Source: Smittium mucronatum (taxonomy: Eukaryota; Kickxellomycota; Harpellomycetes; Harpellales; Legeriomycetaceae). From it: a stretch of DNA of 19,459 nt. The stretch's first letter is position 1. Each line of letters opens with the position of its first letter. The stretch covers positions 1,453 through 20,911 of the forward strand of contig LSSL01001756.1 of assembly GCA_001953115.1 (NCBI GenBank). Reading direction: 5' to 3'. A model generated the notes under the pieces. That model did not search any database. It saw only the letters and a program-made list of their open reading frames with translations, and was not told the origin of the DNA. The position numbers and the translations under genes are program-made. Below, piece after piece: positions 1 to 19,459 of the stretch.

Positions 1-1130
1 CTATATATATATATCGGCTTTTTTCAAATTTTCATAAATATATTCATTTTTTAATGAATAAAAGTTACCTTAATGTTATTCTTTTTATATTTTATCTGGG
101 ATTCGTTTTCTAAAAAACATTAATCCATAAATATGTTTCTAAATCTAGAGATCTGCCTATAAGACAATATATTTGAATCTAAATCTTTGGTATTTAACTT
201 GATTTTATAAATAATTAATTATAATGCAAAGTATATTCATTACAGAAAAGGGTTTTAATAATCGAAAAAAATCGTATCTTCATAAAAAATATTTAAAATA
301 CACTGGAATACAGATCTTTTTCACAGCTTATGTTACGTACCTCCATCATCTTTAATTTCATCTCGCAATCAATCTACCAATTTTGATTTAAAATAATAAA
401 TTAAACATTAGTTTATTTTATTTCAAATGTGACAACACGTAATTTAATAATAAATTTTACTGTATTAAAAATATTTATTGCGTAAGAAGGGGAATGATTT
501 AAAGAATGTTTCTTATTTATTTAATTTTATTCAAAGATAAAGGCGCCCATATATTATAAAATATTTCTATTTAAGTTCTTGAAATTCGTAGATATATCTA
601 GAAAAATATTAAAATTAAAAATTTAAATAACTTTTTTTTAAAATTTCTATTGTAAAAATAAATCAGTAGTAAAAAAAATTATAACTAAAGTTTTCAATAT
701 TTATCTAAAAATTTAATCTAGACATAAAAGCAAATTGTTATATGTTTACAGATAAAATCATTATTTTTCTTCCAAAAGATTGTGCATACACACGTTTTTT
801 CTCGTTAAATCCATTTACTAAAAATAGATTTCTAGAAATATTCAGTTAATTAATTCTACTAAATTATAATTAAAAATTATAATACCGATTATTTTTTATA
901 ATTATTTTTAATATAATATAGATATAAAATTTTCTGTTGTATATATCTTAATAAATTTTAAAGTCTCATGCTAATTAAATAATTATATTTGATTAATAAA
1001 TTCGGTTATTTAATCAACAATATATATCAATATGTATTAAAAAATTGTCAATTTTAATATATGAAGTAAAAAAAAGCAATGCTTTATTTTTCAAAATTAA
1101 TAATGGACACATTTTATTCTTAAAATAATT

Positions 1131-1150
1131 AATAATAATAATAATAATAA
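1131..1150. repeat. (AAT)n microsatellite
   Basis: Six and two-thirds units of AAT, with further imperfect AAT just after it. Confidence 0.9.
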
Positions 1151-2862
1151 ATAATACAAAACTTTTAAATTATTATTTCCTAAAAAATCCAATTATTGTT
1201 TTTAAATTAAAGATTTAATCCTCAATTATTTTGAATTTTTCTGAATTCATTGAAAATTTATCGCCTTTAATGGAGATTGGCAGAAAAAAATACCATAAAA
1301 TGTTGCTTTTACTCAAAAATAGAGGTTTTAAATAATAATGATTAAAATTTTTTTTATATGCACGTAAAATAAAAAGTAAATATATCCCACTTTCTTAAAC
1401 CAATAAATAGCCTTTATTATCTTTTTATATAAAAATAAACGGCATAAAACTCCTCATACAAGAGATGTAAGATTAAAAATGCGAGTTTATGTTTTTTACT
1501 GAATCTATTAAAAAAAGCTAATACTAAAGACATTTAGCAATAAAAAAAATTCTATACAACCATATTGATCCACTTTTTAAGTTATCCGCCTCCAAGAAAA
1601 AACTTATCAAAGGTTATGACTGAATAAATACAGTATTGCTCCAAATTATTTTCCAAAAGGTTGAGAATTATGAAGCGGAACTTTTAAATTTTTATTATAA
1701 GAAAAGATGGAAATTTTACTTATTTCACCTTCTGTAATAAATCTAATCACAAAATCAAATAAATCACGAAATTCAATATATTATTAATAAAATTAGAAAA
1801 AATTTAAAAATTAAAAATTAAACTCAATTAAAAATAATGATTTTAATTGAAAAACTGAAATATAAAATACGTTGGAAGGTCTAAAAGTATAAGAATAAAA
1901 GTGATTAGATATTCTAAATGAATGTATAAAACAGAAAAGACTTTTTTCAAGTTATAATTATAACTTTAATATATTCTTTTTTCTAATTTTTTTGGCTTTT
2001 ATTATAACTTTAATTGAAAAATTCTTTGACTTATATTCAGTGTAATATTTTTAAACCGATTAAAAAATTGATTTAATAATTTAACAAGCATATTTATATC
2101 TGATTTTATTAATGTACTATGAGAAAATAATATTATAAAAAATAAATATATATTACAAACAAATCTAACATAACATAAATTTTCTTTCGACTTTTTTAAT
2201 AAAAAATTCGCCATAAATGCATAATATAATTAAAAATATAAAATAAAGGACAGTTTTTAAGATTATTTTTAACCAAAAATTTAGAAAATTAATATGGTTT
2301 GAATAAAATGTTATATTTAGATTAAATATCATGTATATCAGAAAAAAAATTTAATCGAAAATAATTAAAAATTCCCACTTATCTAAAAATATAATTTGAG
2401 TTTGAATATGTAAATATATATATAGGTATTAACTTATATTTTTTAAATTTTATTTCTTCAAAATTGTAAAAAAGCTATCTATAAGATATAATTATTTAAA
2501 ATATATAGTTTTTGAGATATATTTTAAGACAAATTCCATTATTATGATATATATATACCTATACTTAAACACACCCATACATTTTTTATAGATTTAGTCT
2601 TATGAAACCAATAAAAATCATTTCTAAATTATAAAGAATTATACCGAGTATGTTATATTTATTCTTAGTGCTTTTTTTAACTTTTTTTATTTAAACTATT
2701 CATAAACCCTGTTTAATTATAATCTTTTACTCTCATCCAATACTTTATTAATTTATGAGGGGCTTTTAAAACGTCATTAAAGCTTGAGTGTTAGATAATA
2801 GATATTTTTAAAAAATCATAAAAAAGTTTTTCATAAAATAAAATCAATTTCTTCATGAATAC

Positions 2863-2880
2863 ATATATATATATATATAT
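2863..2880. repeat. (AT)9 microsatellite
   Basis: Nine AT units. Shorter TA runs lie at 2-14 and near 5610-5625. Confidence 0.9.
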
Positions 2881-4782
2881 CAAACATCCAAAATAAATTC
2901 ATTCATCCAAAGATATTTTTTATATTTTACAGTCAAAAATTGGAAATTTTTACCAATACTCTCATCATTACATGTATTAGTTGAAATTCTTGATTTTTTT
3001 ACATTCAAGTTAATTAAAGGTATAATTCAATTAAAAAACAATGAATTCGATTTATTAAACACTTATTTCATCATAATTTTGACCAATAAAAATATATTTG
3101 TTAAAATTCAAATCATATTTAATTAAACAGAATTTTTCAATATGATCGTAACTATTACGAAAAATATATTTAATGGATTTTATTTTGCTGTAAAAATTAC
3201 CAAATATTTATCACAAAAACTTATTCTACTAAATTCGAGTTATAATTTATTAAATAAAATATTATAAATCGTAAATTAGTTTTATATTTAAATTTTAAAT
3301 TTTATAAAAAATATAATTAATAAACATCAAAGTTATAATGATAAAATTAAACTTTTTCCAGATTTCAATTATTATCCTCTAATAAATATAAATGCGTGTA
3401 TAAAATTTATAAATTAGTAATCTAGTTTGGATATGCTGAATTATACTTATTATCAATCAATAAATTTTAAAAAAACAAGATTAAGATTAAAAAACTCAAA
3501 TATTATTCAACTTACCATTGAAAATATTAAAAAGCGCTTTTTTAATAATGTGATCATTTATGCTAAAATCCATGGAGCATATCTACCTTTATATTAATTT
3601 TGATTAAATGATTGTTTTAATTTTATGTCCTTTTATTTCTAAAATCATTACAAAAATTCATGTTGTAATTTCAAAGAAACTAATTCCGATTTTCACAATG
3701 AGTTTTAGTTATAATAATATTTTAAAAATTTACTTGTAAAATGGCTATTGTTATAATTATTTAATTACAAATTTGACTAAAATATCTGGAAATTTTAGTT
3801 TAACCATTTATTTTGGATCATTTATATGCATTAAGGAAAGATTTTAAGTGTTTTTTTAAAATTAGGAATAGTTATTTTTTAAATTTTTAGAATTTTTTTT
3901 ATATTTATTAAACCCCCAAATATAAAATGAAACGCAAAAATTGTTATTCAAATAAAATTTTCATTATGATTCAAAAAATATTTTAGAAAATTAAAATGTT
4001 AACGTTTAACAAAAATCTTAATTGATTTCAATTTTGTCTAAAAAATTTAACAGTATAATTATCAATGATTATGTCTTATAATTTTTTTCCCTTAAAAATA
4101 TTCATTCTGTTAACAATAATTAGTTGATTTTTGCCGAATATACAAGTTTATATAGGTGAAATTAATATAATAACATAAAAATACTCATTTATTCCAACAT
4201 ATTATAAAATAAAAAGAATAATAATAATCTGAGAAAGTGATTTAATTATTATATTTTTAATCAATATATAAGCCTTATTCTGACCAGATTCTCATATTTT
4301 TAATTATATTAAAGAATTTATAATAATTATTTCAGACAAAAATGGCTATTAAATATTTTTTAACGTATTATAATCACTTTTAATTGCAATTTTTCTTTTT
4401 TTATTAAATAATTATACTTTTTAGTATTAAAATTTTCTGCAAAGCATAATAAATCTTTTAAGAATATAACAATGTCATTTCTGAATCTAGTTAATTTATG
4501 AAAGATACTCTCACTTTCGGCTGAAATAAATACTTGATCTCAAAAATAAAATTATTTTTACATATTTTTACATCAATGTATTTATATATTTATAAAAATA
4601 TATTTACGGAGTCGAAATTCACGTCAAGGAAAATTATGCAGGAATTATTTTTCTAACTAAATACAAGAAAGTCCAAAATTAAATAGAATAATTTATTATT
4701 GAAGAACTTAACTTAATTTTGTTAGTGGTTTTTACACCCAAAGAATCAGAAATAACGTGTGAAATATAGCGTAAACTGAAAC

Positions 4783-4796
4783 TTTTTTTTTTTTTT
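4783..4796. repeat. Poly-T tract
   Basis: Fourteen consecutive T. No AATAAA-type element is visible next to it, so it is not called a retroposon end. Confidence 0.85.
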
Positions 4797-7180
4797 CTCT
4801 CTAAAAAAACCAAATAATAATTAATATAGGAAATCGAATTCAAAAAAAATTGAAAAGTAAAATTCAATGCTCTGTTTTTGGTTATTCACCCGAGAATTTA
4901 TATTTAAAAATGTAAAATTGCATGTATATTTGAATATAATATACCCAATAATTTTTTAATCTTATAAAGAATTATAAACTTTTTTTAAAACCCAATTCAG
5001 AATTATTATGAACAAATAAAACTTAAAACCAAAATAAAAAAAAATTCCAATTAAATTTTCTTCAAAATTATTGATTATAATATATTTTTACGTATTTATT
5101 TTGTTCTAAAATTGATAAAATGAAATAAAAATAAATGTTGCATATCATATCATATATTATCATTGAAATTATAATTAATTTTGAACAAAGCTGAAAATTT
5201 TTTGAGCGTTTTAGAATCTTTATTTAAATTTAATTAACTATTTTTAAGCAGTTAAATTCACCTAATGTAAAAAATTTGAACAGAATAAGCCAAATTAAAT
5301 CATAAATTATGGACTTAATAATCATTTTTTTTTAAATGGGATTTATTTAGAATGTTTAAATACTAAATAAAAGTATTTAAAAAATAAAAAATAAGTAAAT
5401 GAAAAATATTATCCCACTTTCATATGTTCCTATTGCGGTTATTTACCCACCGATAATTGGTTCAAGTATAAAATTAAAACACAAAAGGTTTATTTCAACC
5501 CATTTCGAAACAATTACATCTACATCTGCGCTCTAATTTATATAAAAAGCTCAGTTTTAATTTAAATATATATATATGCACTTAACTTTTAAAATTTCCG
5601 AAAAAAATTAATATATATATATATTTAAAGATTAAATCAAACTAAAAATATTTAATAGATATTTTAAAACAAAGATAAAGTCATTAATTTTTTTTAAATA
5701 TTTTTAAACTAAAGCTGATAAAAAAGTTGAAAAGCTACAAAACTTATTTAATTTTTTTTTTGGTTTTTGAAATAACAAAAAAAAATTAAATATGAAATTA
5801 TCCCATTGAAGCCTGACTAAAATAAATATTGGGTTTATTTGACTAAATGTTATTTTTGACTAGATTTTATGATTAAATTTAGTAGTATAATTATAATAAC
5901 CCAAATTAAAATTATAAATAGACTCAGGATAAAGCAAGTATAAAAATTATAGCATAGTGTGGTTCAATTAAATAAAAAAAATTTTCTTCTTTTTTTGTAT
6001 ATTTTATTAATATATAAAATACACATATTTATATTTTAAAACTTATTTAGTTTATATAAGAATAGGGTTTATTTTGCATTCAAATAACTCCTGATAATCA
6101 TACGCCGAGTTTTTTATAACTTTTCCCTTTCCTTTTAAATTTTCGATTTTAAGAAAAACCAAAATTCACAGAGAATAAAGAAATTTAATTATAAAATTCC
6201 CGAGAAAATCTTTAATATCTAACGTATTTCAAATTTTATAATTAAAATCAGCTTATAACTTTAGGAGTGTATTAATTATTATTAAAATGAAGCCTCAGGT
6301 GGATTTTAAGTATTATATTAACTATTTTATTCATATATATATGCAAGTATACATAAGTTATTTATAATTAATTCAAATTTTAAAATACCATAAAAAAATT
6401 TGAATTTACAATAATGAGATCTTATAAATTAATATAGTATAAAAAATTCTATTCTAAATCAACAGATGCCACCCAAAAAATCACATAAAATTGAATAGAA
6501 CTAAAAAATAAAAATAAAAATTCCATTTTTTTAAAACATGAAATAAATATAACAAAATTAAATCAAAGAAATGCTATCACTGAAACTAGATTTTCACAAA
6601 ATTTGTCCATCTTGTTCCAAAAAATTTGCAGTATTTTTTTTTTTACATTTATGGAGCGAATGAATTAAAATGAGAAAGCATTATTTATCCAATATAATAC
6701 TCGTTGAAGCTTATCTATTTAAATTAATCCAATAAATTTTATTTTAGAAGATCGATTAAAATTATTTTAAATCAAGTAAATTTTTTAAAGATAAAAAAAA
6801 GAGAAAATTTTTTAAAATGACTTTAACAAGTATTACCAACTATTTATTACATATAAAGGGTTTAATATTGACTTAAAATCCCAAGATCATTTTTAACTTC
6901 GAAAACTAAATCGTCTATGCTTTGAATATTATATTTTATATGATTTAGATTACATTTAATATTACAACTTTAAAAAAGGAATTTTGCAGTCACGTTGTTT
7001 CTATATTCTTTAAATAAAAAGCAATTTCTTCTGTTTTAAATTTTAAGGGATATGGTTTAAACAGCACAAAAGTTGACTAATTGAATGATACAGAGGTTTT
7101 TCTTAAATTTAAAGAAGTTGTCATAGCTGATAAAGAAAATCCAAAAAAACGAAATGATTATCATCTTTGAAAAAATGGAA

Positions 7181-8630
7181 ATAGTTTAATTTCGTTCAGC
7201 CCCAAAATCTCTAGTTTCTAAGAAAACCCCAAGACCTGAGGTAGAAGCTGTAAATTTAGAGGTCGATGCCAAAATATTCCGAGTTTAAAATATTTTTTAA
7301 GCCATATGATATTGATTTTATATTTATATTACAATTAAATTCATAAATTTTCGGTTATAAAAGGTAATAATCATTGAGGGTCATTTGAAGATCTAAACTT
7401 TCAACCAAATCATAAGCAATATGAAGGCTGGAAGTATTGCAGGGGATATATACTCTTTATTTATTAGCATTGGCTTGTTATCACAAATATAAAATATTAA
7501 TAGTTTAAAATAGTTGTCCTGTTTATTTTTTCTTTTTACATTTATTAACGCTAAGGGGGCTTATATCGAAATCGAATTCAGATTATAAGAAACCATCAGT
7601 ACTCTGTATAAAATACATTTTTGTTTTTAATTTGTTTATTTAACAAGTTTCACATATTGAATAGTTTTTTTTCTTTTCTGTCTGTTGGCTATCAACCAAT
7701 ATATAAAGTGGTTATGGGTTTAGTACCACATGGCTGATTTAAAGCAAATAAAGTACTTTTAGTAAGCTAAACAATTTTCTTGACACATTAAAATCTTCAA
7801 AGAAGACTCTTTAAAAAGAATTGTATGTTAATGGGTTAAGATTACCAAGGTCATATGAATATCGACACGTCATCATAGCACAAAATCTAGGAAGTTCAAA
7901 TTAATAAAGTGTGTTGTTTATTTAACTTGGCAATTTACTCAGATATAGTGTATTCGGATATTCTTAACAAGTTCTAAAAATTATTATTCAAAACTAAAAA
8001 CCCCAGAAAAAAGAATAAACGGCATATAAACTATGAGAAACCGAAAATTAATCGCATCTTGCAGTGCTATTAGATTGTTATGGGGCTGAATTGGATCATG
8101 TTCTCCTTTTCAATTTTTAATCCTATGGGATACTTTATTGACCATGTTCTACCTGAGGATTTCTGCATTTTACATTTATTATCCAAATGCTAATATATTC
8201 ATGTCTACTGGTAAATCCCATTTAATTCTTTTAGGAACAGAAAATACCTTATCTTAATTACTTTATAGATATGGAATCGCCGCGATTACAAATACGAAAT
8301 AAATGAAAAGGCTTTTATTGACCGAAAAATGAATGTCGTTTCTGTACTACCAGAGCCAAAAGGATTATATATGGATATTTGTATTTTTTTTACAAGTCGA
8401 GATTTCAAAAGGTCGTTTTATTTATTGGTGTCCTAATCAGATACACCGAAATAGGTTAAACGTCACTAGAATTACGAAGTATTTGATATGCCCCATTGGT
8501 TATCCCAGCCCATTTTGTTGAGTTGCACATTTATTTATTTTAGTTTGTTGTCTTTGAAAGTTTATGGCAACTTTTTCTTATAAAGGGGGTTTTTACTGGG
8601 CCACGCAATCGGTATTCAGTGTTATAGGCT
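7181..8630. other. Non-genic stretch with exon-like scraps
   Basis: Less AT-extreme than the desert. Two fragments read like broken coding sequence. One is 7193-7288 (+), which includes PRPEVEAVNLEVDAKIF. The other is about 8270-8432 (+), which follows an AG acceptor-like site and includes NVVSVLPEPKGLYMDI. Neither has a start, a partner exon or a recognised family. They may be decayed gene or transposon pieces, or chance. Confidence 0.3.
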
Positions 8631-8711
8631 ATGAACAAGGGAAAAAAGATAAGCTCATCTAAAAAGACTAAAGACACTTTAAAATGTGGTTTTAGCCTTT
8701 TTGAAACCCCA

Positions 8712-8720
8712 TATAAATAT
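8712..8720 (+). promoter_or_regulatory. TATA box candidate for the acetyltransferase gene
   Basis: TATAAATAT about 110 nt before the ATG at 8823, inside a stretch less AT-rich than the desert upstream. The spacing suits a fungal core promoter, but TATA-like words are frequent in such AT-rich DNA. Confidence 0.4.
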
Positions 8721-8822
8721 AGGCTGAGCAAGTACGAAGTTTTGGTTAATTCTAGTAAGAGTAGAGACAATAGCTTCAAGCATAAAAACCAAAAAAAAAA
8801 AATTATCCTGTAGCTATTAAAA

Positions 8823-9551
8823 ATGTCGAAAACCGAAAGACAAAAAATGCTGGATGGCGAGTTCTACCTCAGTAATGATCCTGATCTCGTCCAAGGGAGA
8901 TTCAGGTCTTCTCAGTTAGTCGGCGAACTCCAGAAGAGTTATAACAATAGAGAGGAGCGCATCAGAATAACAAAGGAACTACTAGGGACCTGTGACGAAA
9001 CTACATATCTTGAAAAATACGCCTACTTTGATTATGTTAGTACCATCCATTTGCAATGAATATAAAATACGGAAGGATTACACATCATTTTTTCATTTTA
9101 ACGATTTATTTTTTTTTGCTTTAGGGCGTGAATGTTCATGTTGGAAAAAACTTTTACATGAATGCGGGTTGTGTTATTTTGGACTGCGCCCGAGTCGATA
9201 TCGGCGATAATGTCATGTTTGGACCTAATGTTCAGATATATACTGCGACTCACCCTATTGAAGCTGAACCTAGAATTAGCGGAAAAGAATTGGCTTATCC
9301 AATAAAGATTTGCGATAATGCTTGGATAGGAGGTGGTTCAATAGTGCTCCCCGGTATAACTATTGGAAAAAACGTAACTTTTACTACCATATTTATAAAG
9401 CAAATATTTTTTTCTAAAAACATCTGTTTTTATTATTTGAATTTAGTCTGTAGTTGCAGCCGGTGCTGTGGTAACTAAAGATGTTCCGGAAAACGTTGTA
9501 GTCGGTGGGAACCCTGCAAAAATTATCAAACGTATAGATAATGGTCAATAG
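8823..9551 (+). CDS. Maltose/galactoside O-acetyltransferase, three exons
   Basis: Exons are 8823-9035, 9125-9373 and 9447-9551, giving 188 aa. Known family role: transfer of acetyl from acetyl-CoA to a sugar hydroxyl in the cytosol, usually as a trimer. Residues 1-55 form the Mac domain ([13 protein letters not shown], then an R/L-rich helix). From about residue 72 a left-handed beta-helix of hexapeptide repeats begins ([25 protein letters not shown]). The segment TATHP carries the expected catalytic His at residue 114, and NAWIGG and [10 protein letters not shown] are classic closing motifs. Length matches the family (about 180-190 aa). The start is fixed by an in-frame TAG four codons upstream and by A at -3. 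Both splice junctions restore uninterrupted family-like sequence (DY/GVN and GKN/SVV). A TATA box lies about 110 nt upstream. Substrate (maltose, galactoside or another sugar) cannot be told from sequence. Clear family; exact specificity open. Confidence 0.93.
9036..9124 (+). other. Intron 1 of the acetyltransferase gene
   Basis: An 89-nt phase-0 intron with donor GTTAGT and acceptor CTTTAG after a T-rich tract. A possible branch site, TTTTAAC, lies near 9096-9102. Without removal, exon 1 runs into a TGA. Splicing joins Asp-Tyr to Gly-Val-Asn exactly where the family is continuous. Confidence 0.88.
9374..9446 (+). other. Intron 2 of the acetyltransferase gene
   Basis: A 73-nt phase-0 intron with donor GTAACT and acceptor ATTTAG. 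Its removal joins ITIGKN to SVVAAGAVV, restoring a hexapeptide turn. Another AG occurs 8 nt downstream (TCTGTAG) but would destroy the frame and motif. Read-through would give a nonfamily tail and an early stop near 9476. Confidence 0.87.
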
Positions 9552-10451
9552 TATACATCAAACATTTTCTTTCATATTTTCAAATTGATGTATTACATCT
9601 GTAATTGTTGAGTTTATCATTCTTTACAAAAAAGTAGCAGTTTTTGATTAAATACATATCCTTTTTAATCCAAATTTTTAGAAAGGTTTTTTGGAATATA
9701 AATCATATTTGATTTTACATTCTAATTTTTTTTTTTTCAAGATATATGTTTTTCTCATTGATGGATGATAAAATGAATTTAGTTAGATATGAATAAAAAA
9801 AATATAATTTGGTTTACCGTAATTGATAGTAAAAAATTTCTACATTTTTTATATCCATTTGATAATTTTTCTCAAAATATATTTCGATTTAGATCATTCT
9901 GTTATAAGGTAAAAGTATATGTCCAACAGTTATAATATATAAGTTTAAATGCATAGATAAAAATACCAAAAAGTAAAATTTACGAAAGTTAGGCTGATAA
10001 ATAAAAATCCACATGTTTATATTGTTAACTATCGACCACCTGTTTCGAAATAAATTTTTAGTTATAGGAATTCTTTTCTAGAGTATTCATGAATGTTATC
10101 GTTTTTCAACAGTCATATCTACAATACTTTTTCATCACCAATTTCACAAATTATCGTTGTATAAAATTACGAGTAGAAAATCAAATTATGGAATTTTAGC
10201 TTTTTTAATTGAAAATAATCATCCAGTTGTTGTTAAATGAAATTTTAGGCAAGTGTCAGAATTGCTAAGAGCCAGCTTAAACTCTAAAATCCACGAATTA
10301 ACTAGAGGGATAATTAATAAACCCAGTTAAAAAACCACACAGAGATAAGGTAATCAATACTACAGTGGAACCATTTTGAAAAACTGGGTTATTTTGACTC
10401 TATTTTTATAAAAATTGGGATTTCCTCTATTTTCTATTTTTACAATTTGAT
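9552..10451. other. Intergenic region between two convergent genes
   Basis: AT-rich DNA holding the 3' ends of the acetyltransferase and Tim17-family genes, with T-runs (for example 9726-9737). No further gene or RNA is visible. Confidence 0.6.
9792..9797 (+). terminator. Possible polyadenylation signal after the acetyltransferase gene
   Basis: AATAAA about 240 nt after the stop codon, followed by an A-run. It is the first canonical hexamer I found downstream of the gene. AT-richness makes chance occurrence likely. Confidence 0.25.
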
Positions 10452-11057
10452 TTATAAAATCGATTTCAAGTAAAAGGGAATTTCTCCCTTTACGTACCAA
10501 TCAATAGCATCTTGGGAAACTCCTATACAAAAACCACCCAGGGTTCCCATTTTAACTAGTCTGTAAAAACTGGATCTGGGAAGTCTAGCGGCTGAAGCGC
10601 ATAGCAAAGATACTGTAAATCCGGCAGCGACTGATCCTAAAGCGCTAGTTCTTTCAACAACGTATTTATCAACAGCCGCTTCAACCAATTCATAAGCACC
10701 AGAAACGAATCCGATCCGGATGCCGTAATAAGAGGCTTTTTTTATTGCACCCAACACTACGCGATAATTCTTCCATTTATGGTAATAGTACCAGCCCGAA
10801 ACCGTCGTGGGTAAGTTGTGTGAACGTTCGGCTAAATACTGCCAAGAAGCTGATCTGCCTCCAATGTACCCACCAACGACGGCACCACTCAAAGCACCTG
10901 TAATGGTCAATAATGTTATCCTTTTTGGAGGTTCCATGTGGATTCGAACTAGTTGGCTACTATTTCTTTGTGTTTCTTCTACATTATCATGGGTGAAATC
11001 AGCTAAAGCATCGGCCGTGTTTACCTGATCTAGATTAAGTTTTGTTGAGGCCTCCAT
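10452..11057 (-). CDS. Tim17/Tim22/Tim23-superfamily membrane protein
   Basis: Intact 201-aa single-exon ORF, ATG at 11057-11055 and TAA at 10454-10452. Residues 1-45 are hydrophilic and acidic. Four hydrophobic, small-residue-rich segments follow at roughly 47-67 (with GALSGAVVGGYIGG, residues 54-67), 108-128, 138-155 and 170-188. Glycine-rich four-helix bundles of this kind typify the Tim17/22/23/PMP24 superfamily, whose members act in protein import or complex I assembly in the mitochondrial inner membrane, or in peroxisomes. Between helices 1 and 2 is an unusual segment, NLPTTVSGWYYYHKWKNY (residues 81-98), which I recall from uncharacterised fungal members rather than from Tim17, Tim22 or Tim23 themselves. 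No cleavable presequence is obvious. It could be a TIMMDC1-like assembly factor; that is a guess. Family confidence is good, orthology low. It stands alone on the minus strand, tail to tail with the acetyltransferase gene. Confidence 0.8.
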   Translation of the reverse strand: MEASTKLNLDQVNTADALADFTHDNVEETQRNSSQLVRIHMEPPKRITLLTITGALSGAVVGGYIGGRSASWQYLAERSHNLPTTVSGWYYYHKWKNYRVVLGAIKKASYYGIRIGFVSGAYELVEAAVDKYVVERTSALGSVAAGFTVSLLCASAARLPRSSFYRLVKMGTLGGFCIGVSQDAIDWYVKGEIPFYLKSIL

Positions 11058-12024
11058 ATCTATTTTCTGTTTTATGTCGAATATTCTGCTTTAAAAATCA
11101 ATATTGGCGATAGTAATCATATTGGAATCGAGCTTATCGATCGTATTAATCTCTGAATTGAAGATATTTTGTGACTTCGATTCCTGTTTTGCAAAAAAAA
11201 AAAACTAAATAAAATCAAGTGTTGATTCTGTTGAAATATGATTATTCTATAGCCATCTATTTGATTAGCAGATTCCTGCTACAAATTTACCAAATTGTAT
11301 CATACCATTATTTGATTTCGTCGAATTAAAAATATATATATCAAAAGATCATTCGATAATAGACAAATGTTTAAATTCATCCAATTATTGAAGAGAGTAA
11401 TAAGATCATATATTTTTGATATTAGAGGTTTTCAACCATTAGCTGCGAACACAACCTTATAATAAAATTTGTAAATTATGTTAATATTTAAACCAACCTT
11501 AGTTATAAACATTCCTTATAATATACTGATTTTTAGAACCTAGAGGAATTTTTAAAATTTTATATGTATAGTAATCATTGGAGCATTTAAATATAATAGT
11601 ACATAGATGTAGCACAATTATGATGATAATAATACAAAGAGATAGTTAATTAAAAGCTTGGGATATTTCGTTTAGAAAATAGCATCAAAAAATAAAATGT
11701 AGAACAAAAAATATAATCTTTGGTTTAAAGAAAAGGTTTACGAAGGCTCTGGATGTATTAACAATCTAAAATATTTATTTCTCAAATAAATCGATTCCAA
11801 GAAAAAGTGCACGATTAAATGATCAAACGTTATTTTTCAATATTTTTTATTGATTAATGTCATTTGTTTATTTTTATTTTTTTCAATTTTTTCATTAGTT
11901 AAAAACATAAAATCTATGTATACCCAAAATAAGCTTGAATAACACAAACATATTAATACTAGTGTCGGTGTTTATATTTAATCTAAGAATACACAGGAAT
12001 ATTTATTGGGACGGGCACTCATCC
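11058..12024. other. Upstream region of the Tim17-family gene
   Basis: AT-rich and non-coding. A TTTTAAA word on the minus strand near 11090 is a weak core-promoter candidate. Nothing else is supported. Confidence 0.5.
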
Positions 12025-12085
12025 TTTTTTTTTTTTTTTTTGTATCGCGAAATTTTATTGTAAGATTTGTCATTAAAAACTATAC
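12025..12085 (-). mobile_element. Retroelement 3' end, copy 1 (poly-A tail on minus strand)
   Basis: On the + strand a run of 17 T (12025-12041) is followed by a short spacer and the block AATTTTATTGTAAGAT at 12051. Read on the minus strand this is CTTACAATAAAATT, an AATAAA polyadenylation signal, then about 10 nt and a poly-A tail. The block recurs at 13611-13646. Poly-A directly after AATAAA indicates a retroposed transcript end (LINE or SINE). The element body above 12085 is not recognisable. Confidence 0.5.
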
Positions 12086-13594
12086 TAATCACTCACCCTT
12101 TTAGTTGTATTTATCAGCCGAAAGCGGGATGAGAATTTAGATGTTTTAATTAGATTCATGTTTTCAGAGAAAATGAAAAATTCACAGAGAAAAAAAATCT
12201 AGGGATTGTTTTTTAGTTACGTCTAAACAGAAGCCATAGTGACCAAAGTTTTCCTTTTATAAATAATAATAGTTTATTTTGTCGATATATCAAAAATACT
12301 TCATCTATATTGAAAGTTTCTATTAAAAAAAAAAACGATTAGATAAACTTTTAAAGCATGAACTTAATCAAGATAGTTTAAAAAAAAACATATTTTTGAT
12401 ATTTGTTAATTTATCTATCCTTTTTAAAAAGTTGGTTTTTTAGAATTTTTTTTCTTTGAAACACTCTAATATGAAGGAGTTATCATAATGAATATATATT
12501 TTTATGGTCTTTAAATGTGAAAAAACTCCCATAACACATCCAAGACTTATTTTTTGAATCATTTACTTATTTTGATATTTCTAACTTATTGATAGCAAGA
12601 AATCTAAAATACTCTAGGGCTATTTTAGGACAGTATTTTTATGGATAAGGACAAATGATCGAGTTTTTTTATTTTTGAACATAGTTTTTTTTATATAAAA
12701 TCTTTAAAAAGAAAAAATCCACAGTTTTTTTTTATCGCAAATATAATATTTTCCCTTGATTTTGAAAAACTTCATTATTTTTAAAGGTCACATGATAATT
12801 TAAAGTAAACTTACTCTTATACTATTCCACTCCATATATTTCATTCTATGGAAAAGAATAACTCAAGTATCTAGAATCTAATCAACTTTATAATAATCTA
12901 AAGCAACAGGATAAATGTATGAGAGGTTTATACTAAAATGACTATGGCTTAGTAAATCATCTTCCTATTCAATCTATATTCAGCCAACAGGAATGAGACT
13001 AAGTATTCAAAAATCATATTTAAATAGTTGAATTTTAATTCTTTTTTTTTTTCCGTTTTGAATTCGAAATTCCATTAAACCTAAAGGTGAGGGTTCTAGC
13101 GGGGAGGGGGGGGGGGTTCAAAATATCACATCTAACTCAACCTCATCGATTCTAGGATTAAATAATGACAAAATTTAATCTAAATCTTAATTTCAATTAG
13201 AGAAATGGTATAAGCGTTATGTTAAAGTGCTGGTAAATCATCATTACATTTAATGCCAAAAAATACAAGGAATTCATAGTAGGATTTTAGATCCTGGTGT
13301 ATTATTATTTCACTAGGTTTAATAAATTTATGAATAATTTTTTAAAAGAAAATTTTTATGGAATATGTACAAACAAAATTATTTGGACATAAAGAAAGGG
13401 GGAGGAGAGATATCTTAATGGGATATTACGGTATATCGTGAAAAGTCATAGCCTGCAATTTCAAGAAAAAAAAACGTAAAAAAAATTCCTTGAATCGCAA
13501 GCTTTTCATTGAATGATTTAGGCCTTTGTATTGCTATTTAAAATGTTATTTATATTTATATTTAATGCTTTGAAAAAGTTTTTTGTTTAAACCC
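12086..13594. other. AT-rich non-coding stretch
   Basis: Apart from the G-run at 13090-13116, I see only A/T homopolymers and no coding signal. The first few hundred bases may be the unrecognisable body of retroelement copy 1. Confidence 0.5.
13090..13116 (+). repeat. G-run with G-quadruplex potential
   Basis: GGG at 13090, then GGGG at 13101-13104, one A, and 11 G at 13106-13116. Four G-tracts fit within 27 nt. Such a run stands out in DNA this poor in G. Confidence 0.5.
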
Positions 13595-13646
13595 TTTTTT
13601 TTTATTACTGAATTTTATTGTAAGATATCGTCATCAAAAAATATAC
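13595..13646 (-). mobile_element. Retroelement 3' end, copy 2
   Basis: It shares AATTTTATTGTAAGAT (13611-13626), then GTCAT.AAAAA.TATAC with 12051-12085: about 33 of 36 aligned positions match. It is again next to a T-run (13595-13603, 9 T) in the same orientation. On the minus strand the order is body, AATAAA, poly-A. The GC-elevated stretch to its right (13680-14130) may be its body. Confidence 0.5.
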
Positions 13647-13679
13647 GAAAAAGATAAGAAAAAAAGAAAAAGACGTATA

Positions 13680-14130
13680 GAAAAGACTATTATCCTAACT
13701 ACAATAAGCTCCTCTGCCGGATTACTGGCTGCGTAGCTACAGGAAAAGGGTGCAATCTACCAACCACAAAATAATACCCTGGCATTGCTTCAAGTAGGCT
13801 GGATAACTGAGGTTACGTGCAGTCAAGAATTAAGCTCTTTGTCAACGAACAATAGTTCATTCAATCTACTGAGCTCCTAGCCAGAGCCCACTTCTAATAG
13901 GATTAATAAAATTAGGCTCCTAACCAAAAGTGTGTTTGGCCGACATGGCTTCCTACAATTAGCTTTTAGATACTGAGATCCTTCTGATTACCGAACACTG
14001 GATTTGTGCACTAGACTATGTCTCAGACTGTGCTAAGCGATCGGTTCCTCCTGTTTCCAGATGTTCCTTCTCTAGAATCGCTGTATTACGAATCTCTGTG
14101 CGCTGCCCCCATCATTAACAACCAAAAATA
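13680..14130. mobile_element. GC-elevated island, probable degraded mobile element
   Basis: Base composition jumps from very AT-rich to nearly balanced, then drops back, and every frame is broken. On the + strand the frame around 13955-14010 reads LLDTEILLITEHWI, which resembles the ITE-x-W motif of LINE AP-type endonucleases, with stops on both sides. On the minus strand a 3' end with AATAAA and poly-A lies immediately next to it (copy 2 above), which would instead make it a minus-oriented SINE or truncated LINE. The two readings cannot both describe one element; a nested insertion is possible. No product is claimed. Confidence 0.4.
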
Positions 14131-14409
14131 GTGCAACAATATGTGAATATTTAGTATAGTGTACTTCGAAAAGTAACAATACTTATGCCCCTAAACAGTG
14201 GCAAGGTATTTCACTCGTCTGAGCTGGTTGAAAAATTCACCATTTTTATTCACCCAACCACCGTTAGCTGCTTTTAGTCAGATAGTTTTCGCTTTCATTT
14301 GTTACTGTTTGTTGATTTATCGGATTAATGGCTAATAATATCTAATACTTTAATCAAATACATTATGGGAGATTCTTTTGAAGAACAGGCTTTTTTTCCT
14401 ATATAAACC

Positions 14410-14821
14410 ATTGGCTACAGAAAATTTTAATCAATGTCAAGCCAATATAAATGGAAAAATGTACTTACCCTAATAAATTTTCAACATTTTGCCAATAGAT
14501 GAGTTCTATTTTTGGTTTTATGCCGCAGTTTAATCAATAATTTAGTCCAATTCATAATGCCAATTTCCAAATTAGGAAAGAACAAAAAGTTAGTAGGAAA
14601 GTGTCTGCTCTCAAAGAGAATCTCCCACATATAAAGATTCTTACTCATGTTGGGTGTTTTACTAATAAGGGTTTCTTATTTCCCTTTTAGATATTTTTTT
14701 GATTAGTAGTAAGCCATTTTTAATTCGATTGAAATATTGAATGTAACAAATCTTGTGTGGAAAAATCTCAAGTGTGCAAATTTGCCAAAATTTTGAAAAC
14801 TATAAATAATACTAAGCCAAT
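14410..14821 (+). promoter_or_regulatory. Cluster of CCAAT boxes before the Rep-derived ORF
   Basis: CCAAT occurs at 14442, 14492, 14547, 14560 and 14817 on the + strand, and inverted at 14410-14414. About one would be expected by chance in this length and composition. CCAAT is the binding core of the HAP/NF-Y complex in fungi. This suggests a real promoter but proves nothing without expression data. Confidence 0.3.
14801..14808 (+). promoter_or_regulatory. TATA box candidate for the Rep-derived ORF
   Basis: TATAAATA lies 134 nt upstream of the ATG at 14942, similar in sequence and spacing to the box before the acetyltransferase gene. It supports host-type transcription of this ORF. Confidence 0.4.
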
Positions 14822-14941
14822 AGCATGATGAAAAAAAATCACTTTATAAGTTCTGTGGGAAATAAGCGTTGGATTTGAAAAGAATCTCCCTTATAATGGT
14901 TTTGGGCACACCATCGAAGATTGAAACTCTTTATAACTAAA

Positions 14942-16120
14942 ATGAACAGTAAAAACTTAGGAAAAACAGGGAAAAGAAAGTTTTCAGGCGAAAACGCAGA
15001 AATAACTGTCGAAAGAGAATATATTTATATCGATTCAGAATCAGATGACGATGAAATTAAAAACCTAAAAAAAAAGACCGTTCAACACTCAAATCCTCAA
15101 AAGACTAACAAAATATCAGTATCAAGTACTCCGGCTGCTCAAAGATTAGAATTCAATACGAATCATAATTCTTTTTCTAATGAAAAAATTAGCTTTGAAT
15201 TTGTAACTAAACCAGTTATCAAAGATAATTTTATAAATTTTGATAAAAATAATTTTAAATATAAGACATCGAATAGTTCTGGTGCTAAAATTAATAAAAA
15301 AACAGTTAAAAAGTCTTCAGAAATAGTGAAAAGCAACGTAAATGTAATTTCTGGAGCCGAGCCTATTACTTCTAAAAGCACTCGGTGGGAGGAAGCTGAA
15401 AAAGTGCAGAATTCACAAATTACAGAAATATCTATTTGCAGAAACGGAGAAATAGATAGTCAAAACAATTTTGTTAGAAGAGATTATTTTAGATCAAATG
15501 TAACGACTCCTTCAGAAAATCATTATTCTAATTATGAAATTCCACAAAATACTCCTTTGTACGGGAGTACAATGTCTTCCCCATATGTCGCTACAAGCAG
15601 CGAAAAATATTATGAAGATATAATTTCATTTAACTACACTCATTTACTTCTCACATATAAAGATTGTCCACTGCCCAAAGACATTGCGCTTGAATCTCTG
15701 CTAAAAACCCCAGTATTTGTAAATAGAGTTTTATTTTATGCGATCGGAAGAGAATATTTACATAACGGAAAATCTAATTTGGTTATCTATTTTAGTTTAC
15801 CAAATTATACAAAAAAATTTCACCGTAGAGCTTTGGATCTATGCGGTTGTCCAGCAGAATTTCAAAGAGCGACACCTCCTGAATCTGCCATCTACCAATG
15901 TATTAAGGATGGTGATTATTTGACTAATATGACATATAATTTCATGAATCTTAAAAGGAAAGATTGCTTGGAGCTGATAAGCAGATGCAAAAGTGTTGAC
16001 GAGGCCCTTAAAATAACTGTGTCAAACTATTCTCTTGGTAGACAATACATCAGGGACCCTTTTTCTTGGACCAGAAAGCTAAATACAATTTCATTGAAAA
16101 ACAAAAGCGAAAACTTTTAG
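14942..16120 (+). CDS. Rep-derived protein: disordered N-terminus plus degenerate geminivirus-like HUH domain
   Basis: Intact 392-codon ORF; ATG 14942 has A at -3 and is preceded in frame by TAA at 14894. Residues 1-225 are Ser/Asn/Lys-rich and look disordered, with a basic patch (GKTGKRKF, 7-14) and a SUMO-interaction-like segment (IYIDSESDDDE, 28-38), suggesting a nuclear protein. Residues 230-330 resemble the rolling-circle Rep endonuclease of geminivirus-like ssDNA viruses. Motif I is kept (LLLTYKDC, 235-242), as is the stretch before motif II (REYLHNGK, 270-277). Motif II reads NLV (279-281), so both metal-binding His are absent. Motif III reads YQCIKDGD (318-325), with Gln where the YxxK Tyr should be. 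Residues 340-383 resemble the Rep oligomerisation region. The SF3 helicase is absent. Inferred role: DNA binding or a domesticated function without nicking. Alternative: a recently endogenised, decaying Rep. ORF reality is near certain; Rep homology is by pattern only. Confidence 0.75.
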   Translation: MNSKNLGKTGKRKFSGENAEITVEREYIYIDSESDDDEIKNLKKKTVQHSNPQKTNKISVSSTPAAQRLEFNTNHNSFSNEKISFEFVTKPVIKDNFINFDKNNFKYKTSNSSGAKINKKTVKKSSEIVKSNVNVISGAEPITSKSTRWEEAEKVQNSQITEISICRNGEIDSQNNFVRRDYFRSNVTTPSENHYSNYEIPQNTPLYGSTMSSPYVATSSEKYYEDIISFNYTHLLLTYKDCPLPKDIALESLLKTPVFVNRVLFYAIGREYLHNGKSNLVIYFSLPNYTKKFHRRALDLCGCPAEFQRATPPESAIYQCIKDGDYLTNMTYNFMNLKRKDCLELISRCKSVDEALKITVSNYSLGRQYIRDPFSWTRKLNTISLKNKSENF

Positions 16121-17839
16121 GATTTGGGGAAAACAAACATTAAAGTCCAATAATTTGACCCGAGAACAATGCTTTTCTTCTAGTCTAAGGAGACAGTCCT
16201 ATTAAATTTTAATTATTAAATTTTTTCATTTTATATAATTTTTTTTAATATTTTTTCGAATACAATTATCGTGGTAGATTACAATTTATGGATATTTATA
16301 AGATATCTAATATGCCCAATTGAGATTTTTTGATCAACAAATTCCATAATGTCTACTTATGTAATGTATATTTTCAAAAAAAAAAAAATGTGAATTGCAT
16401 TGATATAATGCTAAAACCAAAATTGAATAGTATAATTCCTGCTAAGGTATTTATATACCCCAATAAAAGTCTTTTGTTGTTATATAAGTATAATATTCAA
16501 TGAAGATATATTTAAAATTTACAATACTTCTTTTTCAGCGTCTATATTTATTGCTATTTACTTGGAGCATTCAATCCGCCTCAGAAATTAAAAAGATTAC
16601 TCCATAATTATTGATATTTATAGGAAATAGATTAATAGCGTAAGTGGGAAAAATAAAAAATGAAATTCAATCGATTTTTATGGATATGATCAATGGATAT
16701 GTTATTATAATAATAAAGACGAAAATATGAAGGTAAAAACAGTAGTGCGCTTAATTGGGAAAATCTATAAAATCTATTAATATTCTATAAATTAAACGAG
16801 CTATTACTTTTTGAATGTTTACGGATTAGTCAGAAATAGCTTTGATCATCAAAGTTTTATTTATTTAACCAGATCTTTTAAGAATGATTTTAGATTTTTT
16901 TATTTTAAAATATATAAAGCTAATATGGAAAAGAACATAAACATTACAAGATTAAAATCATCGATATAAAGAAGTATGTTATTTAATCTTCTACCGATAT
17001 CGCTATTCATAACTAAGCTAAAATGGACGTGCTATGATTCTTTTTTTTTAAAAAAAAAAAAAACCAAAAAACAACCAGGCACAGGTAATCTAGAATAGAG
17101 AGTAATTGAAGGCGAAGTGGTTTAATGAGTTTCTTATGAGTTTATTTCAATAACCAATAAACGAGTAAAACAAATTACTTATATTCATTCTATGGGGGAT
17201 TTAAGAGTTAAGTTTTTCAAGATTTCTTTCCCAATAAGCTTGGTTTTATATACCCCTATAATTCATTTAATAATTGGAGCATTTTAAAATTAATAAATCT
17301 TTTTCACCAACAATAAACCAATAATTTTATCTTTTTTAAAAGGATTAAGAACTTATGTTGGGTGGGGGTGAATTTTTTCTCTAGGGATTGAATGTAACCC
17401 TTTTCATAAGTCCGAACAAGGAGTTCAAATATGATATAAAGAGCATAAAACCAAATGAAGTATTTATCTCATTTGTATTTAGCATCCATAATCATTTTTC
17501 ATATTAGAAGCTTCTTCAGTTTATACATTCCCGATGGTAGTTATGCCACATGATTTTTTATTATATAATTAGAATTCTTGATAAGAAACTAAACCAAAAT
17601 TAGAAATTAACTTCTCTAATTCCTTCACGAATGTTATATTTTTCCTTTTTAAAGAAGGTCTTTATTATTTTTTTTTGTGAATACACTTTCTTTTTTTATT
17701 CATGGAAAATTCGTTTTAAAACCGATAGAAAGTTATAAAAATTAAATTAAAAAAAAGTTGAAATTTTTCAAATGTTTCATTAATCCGATTTCCTCAATGT
17801 CTTTATAAAATCATCATATTTCGAGAGTATAGCTTTGGT
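16121..17839. other. AT-rich non-coding stretch after the Rep-derived ORF
   Basis: No gene visible on either strand. No clear AATAAA lies close to the stop codon at 16120. The right end probably includes 3' UTR of the LINE remnant. Confidence 0.5.
17041..17063. repeat. T9A14 palindromic tract
   Basis: Nine T followed directly by fourteen A, able to fold on itself and likely a nucleosome-excluding element. No gene is adjacent. Confidence 0.85.
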
Positions 17840-17864
17840 GGCGTTGAAAAGTTATTCAAACGCC
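17840..17864. repeat. Short hairpin downstream of the LINE remnant
   Basis: Arms GGCGTTGAA (17840-17848) and TTCAAACGCC (17855-17864) are inverse complements apart from one extra base, with a 6-nt loop. It is GC-rich for its surroundings and lies 110 nt past the LINE stop, so it may belong to the element's 3' UTR. Confidence 0.4.
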
Positions 17865-17973
17865 AGAACTTATATTTTCATGGCATACTATTGCTAAATG
17901 GAGGTTAAAATATCTAATTCATAAATTAAAGACCAGTTGTTCCAGTTTTCGCTGAATTTATTCATTTTTAAAC

Positions 17974-18764
17974 TCAATACCCAAGAATTTTTACAACCGT
18001 CTCCTGCATATATTCATTGAAATTTAATTTCGTATCAGATCCTTGCGGGTATGGGTAGGATGATCGTTTAATTCCAACTCTATCGCACAGTGATCAATTT
18101 AATAAGATGTGGTCAACAGTTTCAGGCACATCAATTTTGCAGAAGGAACTTTATTTTTTTAAAAAAATTCTTCTATAAATCATATGTTTGATGGTTTCTA
18201 GATGGCCCAGAAGGTGCCCATTCTATTTCTCCGATGTCTTAAATGCAACACATTAGAAAGATAATGTGCTGATGAAGGTTTAATAAGTTTACCTATAAGT
18301 TGATTTTTTTGATTAAAACTCCATTGGTGGATTTTTGACCGCTTGATTTTACTTTCCCTGTCGACTATTTTGATGGAAATTTCTTCTAGAATTTTCAATA
18401 CAATTTTTCTTTACCCATATTGCATTGCTGGTAACCCACAAGTGATCGTTCTGGTCATAATGTATTACTGAACAAAGTCAAAAATCCGAGTATTTAATTT
18501 TAGCCACTTGTGGTATGCACACATGCGAGCAGCAATAATTTTTAAGAGGTCGGATTTTATATTCATCCCAGTTATACTTGTTCTATATCAGACATTTACC
18601 AAAATTTTCAACAAATCGGATAGTTTTGTTCTTTTCGGTTCGGATCGGTTTGAATCTGGCTTCACTAATTTCAAAGGTCCTGCATACATAATTTCCAATA
18701 GAAATATGAACTGAATTATGGGTTCTATTTTTAAACTAACAGGTACGTCTTATCTATTGAGGGT
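17974..18764 (-). pseudogene. Decayed LINE (non-LTR retrotransposon) ORF2, C-terminal part
   Basis: On the minus strand one frame runs from about 18764 to 18198 with internal stops (including 18467-18465 and 18413-18411). It reads like the region after the reverse transcriptase of a LINE: an Ala/Arg segment then AYHKWLKLNTRIFDFV (about 18520-18470), a TRTITCG stretch, and VLHLRHRRNRMG (about 18240-18205). After a frameshift in an A/T run near 18150 a second frame continues to TGA at 17976-17974. It contains CKIDVPETVDHILLN, the C-terminal zinc-knuckle region of LINE ORF2, but the second Cys is Asp and the last Cys position is a stop (18096-18094). The reverse transcriptase core is not visible upstream. 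It is an old, dead copy; family assignment is from pattern recognition. Confidence 0.72.
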
Positions 18765-18889
18765 GTTATTGCAGCACAGAATGCCTAGCTGACAATTAAT
18801 TAGTCGTTCTTGATAGCCCCCTAAAATGTTCCACTTATTTTTCATTATCATGTTCAAATATATATGCTAAAGTGATAGGACGCGTATTT

Positions 18890-19459
18890 TCGTCTTAGGT
18901 GAAGCTACGCCCCCTTTATGGTCTGAAAGTCTTAGCACGCTCTAAGGTTTTTTTTGTCGCTTGATAGTTGTCTGATAGTATAGTTAGTTTATTTTCGTTC
19001 TGTAGAAGGCAATAATTTTTTTATTGTTCAGTTCGGTTTTGTTGGTTAGTTAGTTATTTTAATTATTAGTTCGTGGACTGGGATCATTGCCCGTTATTCA
19101 GTTTTTATAGTTAGTCCAAGTTTTATAGTTCTTTAGTGTAGAAATTAGCTTAATATAGTGCTATGGGCATGGTTATGCGCAACCATGAGTTGGTCGAGTC
19201 CGTTGCTTACCCTTATGGGTTTGCCACTGAGGTCGATGCTTGGCGAGAAGTAGCGGAAGATAGAGATAGTGATGTTTCGGCATCTATTTCTATCGACGCC
19301 TTTGAACTAAGCGGGTACTTAGACCCATCGGTAGACTTGGCGGGATAACCAGTCATGGAGGATCTTGTATCTTAATTACTGGGACTTTCGTTAAGTTACG
19401 GTCTCAACCCCTCCCCCCCCCGGTAAGATTCTCGCCTATTATTCCTACCGTGGGGGCTG
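18890..19459 (+). mobile_element. 5' part of an unidentified mobile element or broken gene, cut by window end
   Basis: This stretch is markedly richer in G+C than its surroundings. 18890-19162 is open of genes and contains many TAGTT/AGTTAG words, like an untranslated leader. An ATG at 19163 opens 61 codons of acidic sequence (VDAWREVAEDRDSDVSAS) to TAA 19346-19348. The same frame then continues with one more stop (19373-19375) to a proline-rich segment (NPSPPPVRFSPIIPTV) at the edge. I recognise no family. A decayed gag- or ORF1-like protein or a first exon is possible. A 9-C run at 19413-19421 interrupts it and may mark a slippage point. Confidence 0.35.

Follow-up and report, generated by a model that had tools for sequence, protein, structure and literature searches.

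An open reading frame with a geminivirus-like Rep domain lacking its nicking residues in the nuclear genome of Smittium mucronatum

Endogenous Reps were reported in fungi in 2011 (Liu et al., PMC3198968), and the same report describes some eukaryotic endogenous Reps as conserved and expressed. The fungal examples presented in the relevant part of that paper are geminivirus-like Reps in the nuclear DNA of ascomycetes and one basidiomycete, cluster with SsHADV-1, and carry motifs that were called easily found. In yam, endogenous geminiviral Rep frames have been kept after integration and purifying selection was reported; these are begomovirus-like Reps that were integrated into a plant host >1.4 million years ago (PMC5014472). 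A further system is man-made. MSV Rep that is cut at residue 219, or that is full-length but altered in both motif III and the pRBR site (rep 1-219Rb- and rep III-Rb-), suppresses viral replication. The authors suggested that such Reps compete for binding sites or form oligomers that do not function, and the inhibition drops as Rep identity drops (PMC4148390). The open-access literature yielded no paper on Reps of Smittium or Harpellales, and PMC3198968 is the only close precedent found there.

The locus described here shares with the fungal cases a geminivirus-like Rep in fungal nuclear DNA and with the yam cases a Rep frame kept after integration. It differs from the former in its host, a member of the Harpellales, and in the loss of its catalytic residues. 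The dominant-negative MSV Reps are either truncated or mutated in motif III, and the protein encoded here has both lesions; those Reps were made from the target virus, whereas this protein is natural and highly diverged, and is likened to them by architecture only. Endogenous fungal Reps are already known, and what this locus adds is an open frame in which all nicking residues and the helicase have been lost.

Genomic setting and coding capacity of the frame

Smittium species are gut fungi of aquatic insect larvae. The window, i.e. the whole stretch of S. mucronatum DNA analysed (19,459 nucleotides), is part of contig C1036 in a 73.8-Mb assembly, which may be incomplete. Harpellales genomes have sizes of 25–102 Mb and GC contents of 26–37%, and that of S. 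mucronatum is described as enlarged, within the 71–102 Mb group of true Smittium, in the passages concerned (PMC5954228). The window contains an uninterrupted 201-aa frame (10452-11057, - strand) whose match to the Tim17/22/23 family (E 1.1e-5) stays under the cut-off, and a hexapeptide-transferase frame (Hexapep match; 9128-9478), and the ORFs of at least 80 aa other than the one under study are host-like only. A dispersed repeat of ~620 bp (13595-14216) recurs with 83–88% identity at no fewer than 39 further genomic sites (40 of 3117 candidates scored), and the start or part of another (18868-19459), which reaches the contig end, is 75–81% identical at dozens of places among the matches listed. 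These host-like frames and dispersed repeats indicate nuclear DNA rather than a viral contig, as had been proposed in an earlier, sequence-only reading of this DNA. By eye, the hexapeptide-repeat acetyltransferase-like gene (8823-9551, + strand) apparently has two introns of <100 bp. Positions 1-6500 of the window have a GC content of 17–20%, compared with 23–36% in most of the remainder, and contain no ORF of at least 80 aa.

The ORF under study occupies 14942-16120 on the + strand and specifies 392 aa from its ATG, within a stop-to-stop frame of 407 codons; the second-longest open frame in the window has 212 codons from stop to stop. In 200 simulated windows (second-order Markov model from window positions 7001-19459), the longest frame had a mean of 115 and a maximum of 183 codons. 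The ORF contains no stop in its own frame and 22–47 in each of the other five, and the 225 codons of its N-terminal tail are likewise free of in-frame stops, with 13 and 30 stops in the two remaining forward frames. The simulated windows and the stop counts rule out a chance ORF, and the intact 392-codon frame was thus borne out. GC contents at codon positions 1, 2, and 3 (0.35, 0.36, and 0.25) and G contents (0.23, 0.14, and 0.11) differ in a coding manner. A TATA box (TATAAATA; 14801-14808, + strand) had also been advanced as an argument for selection; the box is present, but the + strand of the AT-rich window holds 58 copies of TATAAA, so the box is uninformative at such a composition and was dropped as support.

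One explanation is that the ORF is not a host gene but an accessory gene, RepA-like and helicase-less, of a still mobile Rep element or replicon. Mastrevirus RepA, a natural helicase-less Rep, would be a precedent, and Rep-derived loci are dispersed across the S. mucronatum genome. In addition, geminivirus-like transposons have been described in truffle (PMC3198968). Such Tuber-type transposons, however, are multicopy and have terminal inverted repeats, whereas the ORF has no second copy in the genome: a DNA search gave one candidate, the ORF itself, and a protein search with its tail gave two, with itself as the sole match. Repeats in 14200-16900 are short and imperfect, with inverted arms of ≤30 nt that are 72–84% complementary, and the other window ORFs of at least 80 aa, all host-like, also speak against a mobile element. 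The origin nonanucleotide has two matches versus 2.67 expected by chance, and a viral origin beside the ORF was rejected on this count. An accessory gene of this kind is very unlikely.

The tail (residues 1-225; 14942-15616, + strand) is polar, with a hydrophobic content of 21% and basic clusters at residues 11 and 43, a composition that suggests disorder. A protein search found no relatives of it elsewhere in the genome, and PHROGs gave one weak match (E 0.061) of unknown function. The sequence-only reading knew of no such tail in Reps, but stretches of ~120–527 aa precede the Rep domain in the Rep-derived genes on contigs C2122, C2134, and C2026 and in S. culicis, and the window protein is not alone in having a long low-complexity tail. 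A SUMO-interacting-like motif in the tail (YIYIDSESDDDE) was dropped, being no more frequent than in shuffles: at least one such motif occurred in 168 of 2000 shuffles of the window tail (692, 112, and 574 for C2122, C2134, and C2026, respectively). None was observed in the tail of the S. culicis protein P0009.

Rep fold and loss of catalytic residues

The HUH-type Rep domain comprises residues 222-333 (15605-15940, + strand). Of the two Pfam profiles named in the sequence-only reading, Gemini_AL1 (PF00799) gave the ORF 18.6 bits (E 0.0019), below the curated cut-off of 24 bits that is passed by the relatives on C2122 (63.4 bits) and C2134 (28.4 bits). The other, Gemini_AL1_M (PF08283), had no match in the ORF at a maximum E of 10 or in full-length C2122 at a maximum E of 1. 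An environmental-Rep profile, built from 34 rows of an alignment (A2) comprising 38 of 55 hits, two loci, and the window ORF, matched with 38.6 bits (E 2.4e-11, set of 565 sequences), compared with 2.3 bits for the best of 300 shuffled domains. This match covers the HUH domain and the helical region that follows motif III, which the profile aligns to the oligomerisation region of geminivirus Rep (Gemini_AL1_M-like; 15941-16096, + strand). A structural model of the ORF matches TYLCV Rep (7vg8) over 102 residues (228-330) at 1.9 Å, and the modelled domain has the HUH endonuclease fold, in agreement with the comparison suggested earlier. Single-sequence AlphaFold gave no fold for the protein (pLDDT 32), and NCBIfam had no match in the ORF. 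The profile scores, the match to 7vg8, and the tree described below support the proposed geminivirus-like Rep origin.

The protein resembles geminivirus-type CRESS Rep in its HUH-type fold, motif order, conserved Glu and Lys residues, and helical oligomerisation-like region, but has neither the His pair of motif II nor the catalytic Tyr nor the SF3 helicase, carries the 225-aa tail in front, and scores below the Pfam cut-off. The order of motifs I–III noted from the sequence is thus upheld by the profile, whereas the residues of motifs II and III are not. Motif I reads LLTYK (15647-15661, + strand), mostly FLTYP in the family. At motif II (15776-15784, + strand), which is H-x-H in relatives, the protein has N279-L-V281, with Asn279 in place of a His found in 39 of the 40 A2 relatives and Val281 in place of one found in 36. 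At motif III (15896-15907, + strand), Gln319 replaces the catalytic Tyr of 38 of the 40, while the Lys of 35 relatives is kept as K322; a Tyr at 318 lies one residue off the aligned catalytic column. With two other nuclease-dead rows set aside, 15 columns are conserved in 70% or more of the 38 relatives; the protein keeps seven of them (L237, T238, Y239, E271, D299, K322, and G324) and has lost eight, the three catalytic ones included. P240 is also among the conserved sites lost.

As had been claimed, the ORF ends before any SF3 helicase. No helicase remnant was detected downstream at E≤1 (15901-19459), and the three matches upstream (12001-15700) are at chance level (E 0.18–0.73), so a recent helicase loss that left remnants nearby was rejected. 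The loss of the motif II and III residues and of the helicase suggests that the protein cannot be an active rolling-circle initiator by known chemistry. What it retains is presumably the portion responsible in Rep for DNA binding and oligomerisation.

Rep-derived relatives and signs of constraint

A genome search with the C2122 protein gave 20 matches on C2122 and eight other contigs (C2134, C1643, C721, C2026, C1291, C187, C1036, and C2389), several with stops, and a further Rep fragment with one stop is present on C1737. The C2122 Rep gene (L040:3480-6032) specifies 850 aa with HUH and Walker A motifs behind a Ser/Pro-rich tail of 527 aa that contains repeated SSSSVPVRPVRPVL units; it is followed by a 982-aa LINE-type ORF with endonuclease and reverse transcriptase (L040:6889-9837). 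The Rep-derived frame of C2134 (L003:1477-2427) keeps the HUH residues and has Ile for the Walker A Thr that is present in C2122, C2026, and C1291, a catalytic loss of another kind. Two copies are decayed: C1643 (88.5% identity), with seven frame-breaking indels and six stops over 683 codons, and C721 (75.2% identity), with 11 and 19, respectively, over 577 codons. Open frames with helicase Walker A/B are found on C2026 (505 aa) and in S. culicis (P0009, 515 aa), and both lack one His of motif II and carry Lys where the catalytic Tyr would be. C1291 retains 234 open codons, mostly helicase, without an ATG start and with stop-ridden sequence upstream, and may be in decay; Asn stands in its Tyr column. 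C2026 and P0009 resemble the window protein in their open frame, long tail, replaced Tyr, and lost motif II His, but keep the helicase, and the grouping is weak.

In a tree of 29 A2 rows and four own-genome rows, eight Smittium rows lie on one side of a branch (92/68) and are adjoined by six environmental Reps (88/84). One clade (96/87) unites C2026, C1291, and P0009, and the window ORF joins it only weakly (57/29) with an end branch of 2.58. Since Lys occupies the Tyr place in C2026 and P0009 and Asn in C1291, the simplest reading would be one Tyr loss before S. mucronatum and S. culicis separated. Whole-domain identity between the window ORF and the 40 aligned relatives is 10–26%. No orthologue was found in the protein collection among 3714 candidates at E≤1 or 260 at E≤10, in searches that would miss relatives without shared five-residue words. 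The window ORF itself is absent from the search results, and is thus apparently not annotated in the collection.

Identities at codon positions 1, 2, and 3 indicate constraint in C2026 against C1291 (0.52, 0.62, and 0.39; p 7e-7; dN 0.62, dS saturated). The corresponding values for the window ORF are 0.42, 0.51, and 0.30 against C2122 (p 2e-4), 0.36, 0.47, and 0.30 against C2026, and 0.51, 0.75, and 0.49 against the C1737 fragment (p 0.014), to which it has 40% amino acid identity over 52 residues. The latter pair gave a dN of 0.49 and a dS of 1.38 over 51 codons, leaving out one codon pair that holds the C1737 stop; dS is saturated or nearly so in these comparisons. The decayed copies served as controls and show the same ordering against C2122, with second and third positions at 0.90 and 0.84 in C1643 (p 2e-4) and 0.79 and 0.71 in C721 (p 0.002). 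This pattern can therefore be inherited from functional ancestors, and the codon-position signal alone is no proof of present selection; the constraint may predate integration.

This control slightly lowered our rating of the preferred explanation and slightly raised that of a passive relic, i.e. a dead, neutral Rep fragment that is still open by chance. A relic would fit the loss of the catalytic residues, P240, and other conserved sites, the missing orthologue in the protein collection, the stop in C1737 (the closest paralogous piece), and the constraint seen in decayed copies. Against it, copies at 11–25% nucleotide divergence already have 13 and 30 disabling changes, whereas the window ORF, at much greater divergence from all aligned relatives, has none in 392 codons; this absence of stops and frameshifts at such divergence is a stronger argument than the codon positions. 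Second positions are also best kept against C2122 (0.51 versus 0.30 for third positions, p 2e-4), perhaps partly or wholly as a trace of the viral era. A relic is, on balance, distinctly unlikely. Domestication of a dead Rep, which we regard as probable, is favoured by the related loci, since the genome holds decayed copies as well as an open but nuclease-dead one, and another such frame occurs in S. culicis. The exaptation suggested from the sequence thus gains from the intact frame beyond chance and from the related decayed and open loci, and loses its TATA-box argument.

Possible roles of the retained domain

Under the explanation that we prefer, a circular ssDNA (CRESS) replicon would have contributed its Rep gene to the nuclear genome of a Smittium ancestor. 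A descendant copy would then have been deprived of the helicase and of the nicking residues in both motifs, yet been retained as an open frame bearing a long tail at its N-terminus. Its product would most likely be nuclear, combine a DNA-binding fold of the Rep type with a helix bundle for oligomerisation, and be incapable of nicking or unwinding. Like the engineered dominant-negative Reps, it might occupy Rep-binding sites and/or join and poison the Rep oligomers of related replicons, and the fungus would be protected or its own resident Rep elements restrained. On this view the gene would be expressed and under selection, and its product would be nuclear, bind DNA, and oligomerise; the fungus may benefit from it, perhaps through a decoy effect on related viruses. 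A dead open frame beside decayed and active-type Reps in one genome points to the DNA-binding and oligomerising half as what was kept.

The truncation and the lost motif III Tyr, set beside the MSV constructs, make interference with related Rep replicons the leading single mechanism, which by analogy is possible, if on the doubtful side. The main argument against it is the low domain identity (10–26%), which makes action on a related Rep or origin doubtful, because MSV inhibition falls with Rep identity (PMC4148390). The seven of 15 columns kept, the weak place in the tree (57/29), the absence of an orthologue from the protein collection, and the AlphaFold pLDDT of 32 were also counted against the preferred explanation, and as a whole, dead Rep and dominant-negative action together, it falls somewhat short of an even chance. 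If true, eukaryotes would have arrived by evolution at the very dominant-negative strategy with which plant engineers fight geminiviruses.

Next after interference we rate a host role unrelated to defence, in which the Rep fold and tail would form a sequence- or structure-specific DNA-binding regulator of chromatin, replication, or transcription. A new role would fit the very high divergence (end branch 2.58) and the long tail, which has basic clusters and matches nothing else in the genome. The lack of relatives of this tail and of any known domain fused to the Rep domain speaks against such a role, as does the observation of the protein in a single genome, and it appears rather unlikely. The locus might also act against related replicons as a source of small RNAs rather than of protein. 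An endogenous viral element of Aedes aegypti reportedly acts via small RNAs. That this element limits its cognate virus is stated in PMC7522710. A small-RNA source would need neither an open frame nor a retained fold, and base pairing would demand a higher identity than the locus has to known relatives, which leaves such a source extremely unlikely.

Interference may be extended from the window protein to its nuclease-dead relatives. Smittium would then keep a small family of dead Reps as an evolved protein-based immunity that poisons the replication of related CRESS replicons, a natural counterpart of the engineered dominant-negative Rep; we consider this idea unlikely. At least two designs would belong to such a family, equally unlikely as part of this immunity, namely a dead HUH domain without helicase and one with intact helicase motifs.

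Scans of viral contigs confirmed no exogenous relatives. The nearest environmental Reps (P0002-P0007) lie on contigs of 1.6–2.1 kb, which are short for Rep plus capsid and could be capsid-less replicons or incomplete contigs. An annotated protein of Smittium megazygosporum (P0048) combines a non-Rep N-terminal half with a Rep C-terminal half and may represent a gene-model fusion with a mobile element.
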